Shown here one piece after another: positions 12,110 through 15,034 of a stretch of 20,416 nt of DNA (position 1 is its first letter; each line of letters starts with the position of its first letter). The DNA is from a virus: IMG/VR virus record IMGVR_UViG_3300025379_000937, positions 1-20,416 of that record; one strand, written 5' to 3'. The position numbers were made by a program, and so were the translations under genes. The notes beneath the pieces are model-generated. The model was not told the DNA's origin, made no database searches, and saw nothing but the letters and a program-made list of their open reading frames with translations.

Positions 12110-12548
12110 AAAAATTGGACGAAGGTATGTGCCTGTAGCCGAATATGATAACGATTTTTTGGACAGCTTTCCAAAAGGCAATCATTTGGTTATGTCTTAT
12201 CCCGGAGGTACTAGTCGTAGGTTTAATATTGACCCTAACTATGCGGCTATGATTGCCGCAGGTCGAGTGGCTGAAGATGCTATATGCAAGGCTATTAGTA
12301 AGGCCAGTGAACTGCGTCCTAAACAAACTCCTATCACCCCTAAACAGAAACGAGCATGGGAAGCGTTGGCTGAAGCATTTGGTGATGAACTTTGTACGCT
12401 ACACGGGCTCAGTGTACATGACTGTGCTGAAGCTGGGGTCAAAGCCATGATGGCAGAGGCCGACAAGTTGATGACCAACCCCGCAGTTCGTAAGTCTTAT
12501 GAACAATTTCAAATGGTATGTGCGTTAACTAAAGAAAGTCAAAAGTGA
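12090..12548 (+). CDS. Phage protein of unknown function with the shared C-terminal tail, 152 aa
   Basis: The start is ATG 12090 (MKKIYYEKIGRRYVPVAEYD) rather than the earlier in-frame ATG at 12060, which lies deep in the upstream gene. The core contains GNHLVMSYPGGTSRRFNIDPNY (residues 30-51), AAGRVAEDAICKAISKASEL and TPKQKRAWEALAEAFGDEL, which by recollection is a conserved hypothetical of T4-like aquatic phages. Residues 130-147 (NPAVRKSYEQFQMVCALT) repeat, with a few changes, the tail of the protein encoded at 6814-7233. No active site is recognised. It ends in an overlap with the UV endonuclease start. Structural or regulatory roles are equally possible. Confidence 0.82.
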   Translation: MKKIYYEKIGRRYVPVAEYDNDFLDSFPKGNHLVMSYPGGTSRRFNIDPNYAAMIAAGRVAEDAICKAISKASELRPKQTPITPKQKRAWEALAEAFGDELCTLHGLSVHDCAEAGVKAMMAEADKLMTNPAVRKSYEQFQMVCALTKESQK

Positions 12549-13576
12549 ATAAAAAAATTGGTTTTGCCTGTAAATGGATTGATCATCCAGGACAAGTCGA
12601 TGGCATCAAAGCCACAGATGATGCCAAAAAGTATAACACAGGCGGCACAACTGTTGCTTGGTTAAATAGACAAAAGAAAGATGTAGCAGAACAAAAGCTC
12701 TGGGACATCATGGTACAAAATATTGAATCAACTAGACTATTGGTGGAACGAGTTGGAAATCTTGAAGAAAATCTTAAAATGGTTCGCCTTAGTAGCGATA
12801 TTTTACCTGTGTATACCCAGCGTGATTGGAGTTATTTTTGGCGTCGAAGCGATGTTGTTAACTATTGCGAATCTGCTTTTAAACGTATTGGTGACCTTGC
12901 TAGATCTCGTGGTGTACGCACTAGCTTTCATCCGGGACAGTTTACAGTACTCGCCAGCGACAATCCCGACATCGTGGATCGAAGCATAGAGGAATTTGAA
13001 TATCATGCTGATATGGCACGTTGGATGGGTTACGGGGTTACTTTCCAAGACTTTAAAATCAACGTCCACATATCGGGTAGAGCCGGTCCAGCCGGTATTA
13101 AAAGCGCCTACAGTCGCCTCTCACCCGAAGCCCGCAACTGTATTACAATTGAAAACGAGGAAATAAGTTATGGATTGGATGATTGCCTTGAGCTTGGTGA
13201 TGTGGTTCCTATCGTATTGGATATTCACCACCATGGGATTAAATCAGGAGGAGAATACATCTCCCCCTTGGACCCCCGCGTTGCAAGTGTGGTGCGGTCT
13301 TGGCGTGGTATTCGGCCTACTTGTCATTATTCAGTTAGCCGTGAAGATTATCTTGTGGGTCATAGCACTACTACCCGGCCTGCGATTGATCTTCTTTTAG
13401 AACAAGGATATAAGAAACAAAAACTGCGTGCTCATTCAGATTTTATGTGGAATACCGCAGTCAATGATTGGGCATTGGGATTTTTAGATCAGTTTGATAT
13501 AATGGTCGAATGCAAGTCAAAGAATCTTGGTTCATTTGCTCTTGCTGAATATGCTAAACAATTAGGTGTTCTTTAA
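12545..13576 (+). CDS. uvsE: UV damage endonuclease (UVDE family)
   Basis: The 343-residue protein carries the metal-binding set of UVDE TIM barrels: FHPGQFTVLASDN with His129, EYHADM with His154, VHISGR with His175, ENEE with Glu203, LDIHHHG with Asp226 and His229, CHYS with His261, HSDF with His297, and VECKSK with Glu322 and Lys324. The enzyme nicks DNA 5' to pyrimidine dimers and other lesions to start excision repair. The start is GTG 12545 in a GTGA overlap with the previous stop; the first internal ATG is 55 codons in and would remove conserved sequence (GFACKW). Its 3' end overlaps the - strand gene by 23 bases. Phage genomes exposed to sunlight often carry such repair genes. Confidence 0.9.
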   Translation: MNKKIGFACKWIDHPGQVDGIKATDDAKKYNTGGTTVAWLNRQKKDVAEQKLWDIMVQNIESTRLLVERVGNLEENLKMVRLSSDILPVYTQRDWSYFWRRSDVVNYCESAFKRIGDLARSRGVRTSFHPGQFTVLASDNPDIVDRSIEEFEYHADMARWMGYGVTFQDFKINVHISGRAGPAGIKSAYSRLSPEARNCITIENEEISYGLDDCLELGDVVPIVLDIHHHGIKSGGEYISPLDPRVASVVRSWRGIRPTCHYSVSREDYLVGHSTTTRPAIDLLLEQGYKKQKLRAHSDFMWNTAVNDWALGFLDQFDIMVECKSKNLGSFALAEYAKQLGVL

Positions 13577-13956: not shown

Positions 13957-14295
13957 TTAAGCCTTCTTTGAACGTGGAGCACGTGGCTTCTTAACAGCAG
14001 GAGTCTTTTCAGTTTTAACAGCAGTCTTACGAGGAGCTCTAGCTTTTGCTGGAGCTTTTTCTTTAACTGCTACTTCTGCTTTAGGAGTACGTGGCTTACG
14101 AGTTTTCTTAACAGGCTCTGCTGTAGCTGGTTCAACTACTTCAGGAGCAACTGGTAATACAACAGGTTCTTCAACTACTGGCGTTTCAACTGCGGGCGTT
14201 TCGACTACAGGTGTGCTGGCTACTGCTTTGGGCTTTCTATTAAAATAGATGGCAGCGGCAAAGGCAACAACAGCAATTAATATAATGATTTCCAT
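13957..14295 (-). CDS. Membrane-anchored protein with a histone-H1-like basic tail, 112 aa
   Basis: On the - strand, ATG 14295 has AAGGAA upstream. Residues 2-17 (EIIILIAVVAFAAAIY) are one hydrophobic segment that could anchor the protein. Residues 28-62 are a Pro/Val/Glu repeat (TPVVETPAVETPVVEEP) and residues 63-112 are a lysine/arginine/alanine/proline tail (KTRKPRTPKAE, KAPAKARAPRK, KKPRAPRSKK) of the kind seen in H1-like DNA-condensing proteins. The acidic spacer then basic tail gives a bipolar charge pattern. It could tether phage DNA to the inner membrane or act like a spanin-type extended protein; neither is shown. The gene ends at a clear terminator. Confidence 0.75.
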   Translation of the reverse strand: MEIIILIAVVAFAAAIYFNRKPKAVASTPVVETPAVETPVVEEPVVLPVAPEVVEPATAEPVKKTRKPRTPKAEVAVKEKAPAKARAPRKTAVKTEKTPAVKKPRAPRSKKA

Positions 14296-14350
14296 GGAAA
14301 TTCCTTTTTATGTAAAAATGTATTGTTATTTAATGGGCACTAAATACTGA
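14296..14350. promoter_or_regulatory. Divergent TAAATA-type late promoter candidates
   Basis: The start of a 181-base spacer between divergent genes holds two TAAATA elements pointing away from each other. CTAAATAC at about 14340-14347 (+) faces the SOD-like gene, and on the other strand TTAAATAAC (about 14317-14325) faces the H1-like gene. Both resemble the TATAAATA late promoter of T4-like phages. No good -35/-10 pair is visible here. The + element would start RNA near 14355, so the rest of the spacer becomes a long leader. Confidence 0.4.
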
Positions 14351-14351
14351 T

Positions 14352-14456
14352 ATGCAAAAAATGAAATCAAGTGCCAATTTACCTTTAAGCCACATTGGCT
14401 GTACTACGAAAAAACAGGGAAAGCTCGTAGTTAGGGGTCCTTGGATGCCCTGTTAA
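14352..14456 (+). CDS. Possible 34-aa peptide in the leader of the SOD-like gene
   Basis: ATG 14352 (or in-frame ATG 14361) opens a frame ending at TAA 14454-14456. The product has LPLSHIGCTTKKQGK and ends LVVRGPWMPC, with two cysteines. No Shine-Dalgarno precedes either ATG, and the candidate + promoter would start transcription almost on the first ATG. The frame runs through the region that can form a pseudoknot, so peptide and RNA structure are competing or combined explanations. It is reported because it uses most of an otherwise unexplained spacer and looks like protein sequence. Confidence 0.25.
   Translation: MQKMKSSANLPLSHIGCTTKKQGKLVVRGPWMPC
14388..14454 (+). ncRNA. Possible structured leader RNA: hairpin plus H-type pseudoknot
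   Basis: Three perfect helices can be drawn. AGCCA/TGGCT (14388-14392 with 14396-14400) is a small hairpin. ACTACGA/TCGTAGT pairs 14403-14409 with 14425-14431. AACAGGG/CCCTGTT pairs 14413-14419 with 14448-14454. The last two interleave, which makes an H-type pseudoknot with a 16-base final loop. GCCAAT (14373-14378) can instead pair with ATTGGC (14394-14399), giving a mutually exclusive alternative to the first hairpin. The whole lies 22 bases before the SOD-like start codon. No known riboswitch family was recognised. This rests on hand pairing only. Confidence 0.35.
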
Positions 14457-14476
14457 CCACTTGATGAAATATTTAT

Positions 14477-15034
14477 ATGTACAACTTTATTAAATCCTTA
14501 ACTGAAGGTAAAATCAAACAGGAATTGGTACAGGCCACTTTACCTTATGCTCGAGATGGTTTGGGCAGAAGTCTTAGTAAATCTGCTATAGATTATCACT
14601 ATGGTAAATTATATAAGGGCTATGTTGATCGATTTAACTCTGGTGAAGGCGATCCAGATTTTAACGAAGCTGGCGCATTTTTACACAGCATCTATTTTCC
14701 ACAACTACGTCCGCCAAGAAGCAGTAATAAACCTGATGGCTTGATTTTAGAGTTTATCAACCAGCATTTTAAAAGTTTTGATAAATTCAAAGAGGAGTTC
14801 AAAAAAGTTGCCATGAAAATTCAAGGCAGCGGTTGGGTATATCTTGCCCGTGATGGTAAAATTAAAACCATAGTCAATCATGAAATCAAGCAGGATATAC
14901 TGGTACTTATTGATTGGTGGGAACATGCTTGGGCATTAGACTATCAAGCAGACAAAGAAAAATACCTGGACAATCAATGGAAAATCATTGATTGGGACAG
15001 AATTAATATCAAAATGGAGGGCATTCAAAGTTAA
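14477..15034 (+). CDS. Iron/manganese superoxide dismutase-like protein, 185 aa
   Basis: The Fe/Mn SOD layout is clear: YHYGKLYKGYV with ligand candidate His41, EAGAFLHSIYFPQL with His70, GSGWVYLARDGK (117-128), and the C-terminal signature IDWWEHAWALDYQADKEKYL giving Asp146 and His150 of the DxWEHxY box. All four metal ligands are present. The distance between the first two histidines is 29 residues against roughly 48 in bacterial SODs, so the second helix pair is shortened, and the usual AY of the signature is AW. The enzyme would remove superoxide during infection, or the fold may have been reused. The start ATG 14477 has no evident Shine-Dalgarno and follows a structured leader. SOD genes are uncommon in phages. 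Confidence 0.83.
   Translation: MYNFIKSLTEGKIKQELVQATLPYARDGLGRSLSKSAIDYHYGKLYKGYVDRFNSGEGDPDFNEAGAFLHSIYFPQLRPPRSSNKPDGLILEFINQHFKSFDKFKEEFKKVAMKIQGSGWVYLARDGKIKTIVNHEIKQDILVLIDWWEHAWALDYQADKEKYLDNQWKIIDWDRINIKMEGIQS

Follow-up and report, generated by a model that had tools for sequence, protein, structure and literature searches.

The spacer upstream of the superoxide dismutase gene (sod) in the window, that is, the whole 20,416-nucleotide stretch of viral DNA analysed here, probably holds a gene of its own. We interpret positions 14366-14465 of the minus strand as a stand-alone gene for a noncoding RNA, pseudoknotted in structure and served by a late promoter, whose product most likely acts in trans. 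Sequence comparison finds the RNA family conserved across many large phages of the T4 type in environmental DNA; the family is real and apparently undescribed. In a first-pass annotation the spacer had been taken for a candidate riboswitch in the leader of sod, and it is the combined comparison of strand, promoter and gene order that recasts the apparent switch as an independent RNA gene. The case carries a caution: where a spacer looks palindromic, the wrong strand may be read. Few well-supported RNA families are confined to lytic giant phages, and this one is equipped for bench work: its ends are predicted, it has a promoter and a fold based on covariance, and it occurs once, beside a constant neighbour. 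It opens the testable question of what use a lytic phage makes of a highly folded RNA that would be made late, alongside superoxide dismutase.

Structure and covariation of the sod-side RNA

The spacer extends from the start of a minus-strand gene at 14295 to the sod start at 14477. Its folding energy is ordinary (z -0.97), so a comparison with homologues was needed to settle whether the structure is real. A protein search with the SOD of the window gave 80 viral loci, in most of which the element adjoins sod; pattern scans and a covariance model (R1) extended this to a single alignment of 57 distinct rows, with further copies besides. R1 scores 117.5 bits on the minus strand, its sole real match within the window. 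The predicted 5' end of the RNA is near 14465 and the 3' end near 14366.

The element, described here along the minus strand, is closed by an 8-bp helix, P1, whose 5' strand (14458-14465) pairs with its 3' strand (14366-14373) and which shows compensatory changes in 8 of 8 pairs. P2 follows with 4 bp (14441-14444 with 14374-14377); 100% of its cells are paired, 3 of the 4 pairs covary, and its variants among the homologues are CCAA/TTGG, CCGA/TCGG, CTAA/TTAG and TCGA/TCGA. Both of these strongly covarying helices had been missed in the first-pass annotation. Three pairings that it did list are present in the sequence: the 7-bp helix P4 (5' strand 14425-14431, 3' strand 14403-14409; ACTACGA/TCGTAGT), a 7-bp pseudoknot (5' strand 14448-14454, 3' strand 14413-14419 inside the P4 loop; AACAGGG/CCCTGTT) and the 5-bp hairpin P3 (14388-14400, AGCCA-AUG-UGGCU, with arms 14388-14392 and 14396-14400). 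A 2-bp helix, P2b (14435-14436 with 14382-14383), is 100% paired with one double change in each pair, and a symmetric 4x4 loop, GGAY/YRAA, sits between P2 and P2b.

The pseudoknot is paired in 98% of cells, with double changes in 4 pairs, and P3 in 96%, also with double changes. The sequence of P4 differs in nearly every subgroup, different helices occupying the same place, and its own arms pair with a mean of -5.6 kcal/mol, compared with -3.26 (sd 0.25) for swapped partners. Across the 57 distinct sequences, 97.7% of 1512 pair cells are formed and compensatory double changes are found in 20 of 27 pairs; 0 of 500 shuffles equal the real alignment, and sliding the 3' partners by 1-3 columns makes pairing collapse to 25-47%. 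Covariation among the homologues thus strongly supports a pseudoknotted, conserved RNA structure and, together with shuffles of the spacer itself, argues against an accidental origin of the paired repeats, for which the first-pass annotation had allowed. Shuffling the dinucleotides of the spacer 2000 times produced two interleaved perfect 7-bp helices in 16 cases and never with an enclosing 8-bp helix, whereas the real sequence has all three.

Element lengths are 99-103 and 111 nt, and the invariant unpaired bases cluster in internal loops. The G in the P3 loop (14393) covaries with the flanking C (14401), C-G having become G-C once (L082), hinting at a tertiary contact. The 111-nt variants (L038, L124, L191 and L193) have an unrelated longer stretch in place of the P3 hairpin and keep P1, P2 and the pseudoknot.

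Distribution

Every homologue is from a viral contig in IMG/VR. There is one copy per contig, at sod, in contigs up to 356 kb, and the element lies near sod in every record long enough to show its position; for the copy in L159 the sod neighbourhood is cut off by the end of the record. Sod loci without the element also exist (for example L057 and L062). A mobile element was rejected on this distribution, the single copy being always beside sod and nowhere else in the contigs.

Searches elsewhere were negative. In cultured phages, blastn with two variants of the element gave chance matches only, and the genomes of MIJ3, Vibrio 2.275.O and NCTB gave no significant match in a covariance search. 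The plasmids searched contained no copy; in cellular genomes the core pattern was unmatched, and six weak pattern matches all failed the covariance model. Two viral pattern matches, L184 and L185, were discarded as chance. Rfam 15 returned nothing at the gathering threshold for the window or five related loci; at E<=10 the window gave only chance matches far below the threshold, and two diverged homologues gave none. No description of such an RNA was found in the open-licence literature.

Strand, promoter and predicted transcript ends

Read on the plus strand, P1 contains 22 A-C cells and only 2 G-T cells. An A-C excess on the plus strand corresponds to G-U on the minus strand, which is therefore favoured as the RNA strand. 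Pooling the cells of P1, P2, P2b, P3 and the pseudoknot gives 34 G-U and 10 A-C on the minus strand; the asymmetry is strong in P1 alone, while P3 and the pseudoknot are neutral.

The minus strand also carries a T4-type late promoter core, TATAAATA, at 14470-14477, which ends 4 nt before P1. Practically all 57 distinct loci have a minus-strand TAAATA 4-5 nt upstream of P1; the distance is 2-3 nt in five inverted loci, where the register of P1 shifts. TAAATA keeps its place beside P1 in the inverted L043, L051, L072, L073 and L150, as well as in L023, where the element is 518 nt away from sod. WTAAATA is uncommon in the window: its 20 kb contain 8 copies, where 14.7 would be expected. The T4 late promoter TATAAATA spans -13 to -6 (PMC1524935); by this geometry a gp55-type sigma factor would read the core and begin transcription at the first or second base of P1. 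Of 11 large contigs, 7 encode a gp55-like late sigma factor, so that the element combines a late core at -13 to -6 of its predicted start with a gp55 homologue, as expected of a T4-type late gene. Its own promoter at a fixed distance, its covarying structure and the lack of a conserved frame are likewise those of a stand-alone noncoding RNA. Position 14477 is part of the promoter and also the first base of the sod ATG, so that promoter and sod start constrain each other.

Past P1, the RNA strand is 54% U over 12 nt and then falls to 30%, and TTTT occurs there in 31 of the 57 loci, compared with 11 in a control stretch. This U-richness is compatible with 3' ends just beyond P1, the stretches being too uneven to serve as proof of termination. 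The predicted transcript would have about 100-115 nt and would end just past the other P1 strand, often in such a U-rich stretch.

Gene order and alternative explanations

The divergent neighbour of the RNA gene is an Fe/Mn superoxide dismutase gene (14477-15034, plus strand), as Pfam matches to Sod_Fe_C (1.4e-23) and Sod_Fe_N (5.5e-7) confirm. A TAAATA-type promoter candidate had been reported at the start of the spacer, and it is found as CTAAATA at 14340-14346 on the plus strand. This candidate sod promoter lies beyond the RNA gene, so the sod transcript of the window may carry the antisense of the RNA. The same layout, with a sod-sense TAAATA beyond the element, recurs in 25 of 57 loci. 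In 19 others a separate TAAATA for sod lies between element and ATG, 4-7 nt before the latter, and the transcript from that promoter would be without the element. The element is inverted in 5 of 57 loci, giving the co-directional order promoter-RNA-sod; the remaining loci comprise 7 without a near sod promoter and 1 record without sod.

The position of TAAATA in the 19 loci (L014, L035, L053 and L076 among them) suggests that late sod mRNA there is leaderless or nearly so. A leaderless mRNA would explain the missing Shine-Dalgarno sequence, whose absence before the window's sod start was correctly noted in the first-pass annotation. The RNA-lacking loci L057 and L062 show a similar arrangement of TAAATA before sod.

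These layouts bear directly on cis-antisense control, in which the minus-strand RNA would pair with sod mRNA or its transcription would interfere with that of sod. Transcripts of window-type loci would overlap across the full 100 nt, and the constant position beside sod, wherever records are long enough to tell, fits such a role. The transcripts should not, however, overlap in the 19 loci with a separate sod promoter between element and gene or in the 5 co-directional ones, and antisense control does not require a covarying, pseudoknotted fold. We regard this explanation as quite improbable: an antisense effect on sod is possible in window-type loci and cannot be the general role.

The fold, compact, pseudoknotted and with its invariant unpaired bases gathered in internal loops, is also what an unrecognised small self-cleaving ribozyme might look like, and the twister ribozyme has a loop-to-junction pseudoknot that is similar in outline. 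On the transcribed strand, however, the 5' side of the junction holds the pseudoknot strand, while on the other strand P1 and P2 abut and leave no cleavage loop. The permissive Rfam search gave chance matches only, and a place at the start of transcription offers no obvious use for cleavage. A ribozyme is very unlikely on these grounds.

On the other side of the RNA, the window has a small protein gene on the same strand (13957-14295, minus), downstream of the RNA and preceded by a TTAAATA of its own at 14327-14333. In 23 of 57 loci a same-strand gene likewise comes with a separate TAAATA, and in another 23 the gene is convergent, with its stop codon mostly -1 to +8 nt from P1, which leaves no room for a regulated gene. 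Only in 5 loci (L047 and L172 included) does a same-strand gene follow with no TAAATA between, so that co-transcription of RNA and gene is likely there. These 5 divergent loci, in which the gene following the RNA encodes a small protein, and the 5 co-directional loci, in which sod itself follows without an intervening TAAATA, would suit a minus-strand leader, whether aptamer or stability element, of whichever gene comes downstream. Such a leader is highly improbable all the same, given that the partner varies and that in the two groups of 23 loci it is convergent or separately promoted. A downstream gene that is constant on neither strand fits a stand-alone RNA gene and not a cis-acting switch.

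The reading that had been favoured in the first-pass annotation, a plus-strand sod leader forming a riboswitch that swaps two exclusive helices, is extremely unlikely. It could draw on the sod-sense TAAATA beyond the element in 25 loci, the window included, and on the fact that nearly all helices can also form on the plus strand. Against it stand the inversion of the element in 5 loci, the sod promoter between element and gene in 19, the P1 wobbles, which fit the minus strand, and the promoter that moves with the element, which is on the minus strand and in the window is directed away from sod. The supposed switching helix, 14373-14378 with 14394-14399, exists as complementarity and shows no conservation as a helix: it has 0 compensatory changes over 57 homologues, and 26 of 56 sequences fail to form one of its pairs. 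The comparison of homologous spacers, which that annotation had itself proposed, thus bore out its helices and refuted its switch.

A coding role for the element was rejected. The window-type plus-strand ORF of 34 codons (MQKMKSSANLPLSHIGC...), which begins 5 nt after CTAAATA, is open in few homologues; the frame is broken by 1-nt indels, the best frame is open in 11 of 55, and periodicity is absent (26/25/26). An Hfq-dependent antisense sRNA was dismissed as well, as the fold has no free seed and no Hfq was found on the phage side, which is the side that was covered.

Proposed mode of action

The stand-alone RNA gene that we favour would give a transcript folding as P1, P2, P2b, the hairpin P3 and P4, and the strand that connects P1 with P2 would pair with the P4 loop in the 7-bp pseudoknot. 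The conserved bases are nearly all in helices or short internal loops, with no long single-stranded seed. This makes an antisense sRNA unlikely, the most likely alternative being that the folded RNA acts in trans, late in infection, by binding a protein or ligand. Sequence comparison establishes the fold, its conservation, the promoter position, the compact boundaries, the single copy and the steady closeness to sod; transcription, the ends, late timing and trans action are what we infer. The linkage of the RNA to sod may reflect joint timing through back-to-back late promoters.

Several points count against the stand-alone reading. Besides the G-U asymmetry that is strong in P1 alone, the probable co-transcription in 5 loci and the uneven U stretches, the constant proximity to sod is left unexplained if the RNA simply acts in trans, and in window-type loci a plus-strand sod transcript may also pass through the element and could form nearly the same helices. 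We lean, by a little, towards a new class of RNA, in which large T4-type phages of a broad group keep a late, pseudoknotted trans-acting RNA of about 100 nt linked as one unit to an oxidative-stress enzyme; it might serve, for example, as the core of an RNP, as a decoy or sensor of a host factor, or as a new catalytic fold.

Comparison with known RNAs

Nearest in kind are the manA and wcaG RNAs and the larger orphan noncoding RNAs such as GOLLD and ROOL. The manA and wcaG motifs (RF01745, RF01761) are conserved structured RNAs of T4-like cyanophages, known from water samples and located near metabolic genes, in potential 5' UTRs of genes that they presumably regulate (PMC2864571). The sod-side RNA resembles them as a structured RNA found by comparison in T4-like phages near a metabolic gene, and differs in having its own promoter, no constant downstream gene and no Rfam match. 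RNAs of the GOLLD, ROOL and OLE type are several hundred nucleotides long, and some are linked to phages. The three are discrete, elaborately folded, stand-alone orphan noncoding RNAs of unresolved function (PMC12286853). The sod-side RNA, at about 100 nt, is unrelated to them in sequence and fold and again has no Rfam match.

Small size and paired ends are shared with the pRNA of phi29, a small phage RNA that belongs to the packaging motor of small phi29-like phages; T4-type packaging motors are not known to require an RNA, and Rfam gave no match for the sod-side RNA here either. The bacterial and phage Y RNAs, partners of Ro60/Rsr, also have about 100 nt and paired ends. A Y RNA or Ro RNP was rejected, with no Rfam match and with a TROVE (Ro60) protein in 0 of 12 large contigs, a count that concerns the phage side only and possibly incomplete records. 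The RNAs of type III toxin-antitoxin systems (ToxI, CptI) are small, pseudoknotted and relevant to phages too, but consist of units of roughly 35-45 nt repeated in tandem next to an endoribonuclease toxin gene, whereas the sod-side RNA is a single unit beside sod.

Observations on neighbouring genes

The small protein encoded at 13957-14295 (minus strand) has an N-terminal hydrophobic stretch and is rich in Lys, Pro and Ala; the window copy has no Pfam or PHROG match. Its relatives have an N-terminal hydrophobic stretch or an MxxFxKKLFG-like start and a tail rich in Pro, Ala and Lys. In L023, the insert between the RNA and sod contains a frame with NLEWVHPIENM-like residues, which by eye are typical of HNH homing endonucleases. 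In L043, L051 and L072 the 3' end of a gene similar to the window's UvdE-type endonuclease gene, also judged by eye, apparently crosses the promoter into the first bases of the RNA. The window itself encodes a UvdE-type UV endonuclease (12545-13576, plus strand), whose nearest relatives, at 43-47% identity, are in Phage NCTB and Erwinia jumbo phages. The SOD of the window has more than 500 viral relatives in IMG/VR and is 38% identical to the SOD of PA5oct-like Pseudomonas phages.
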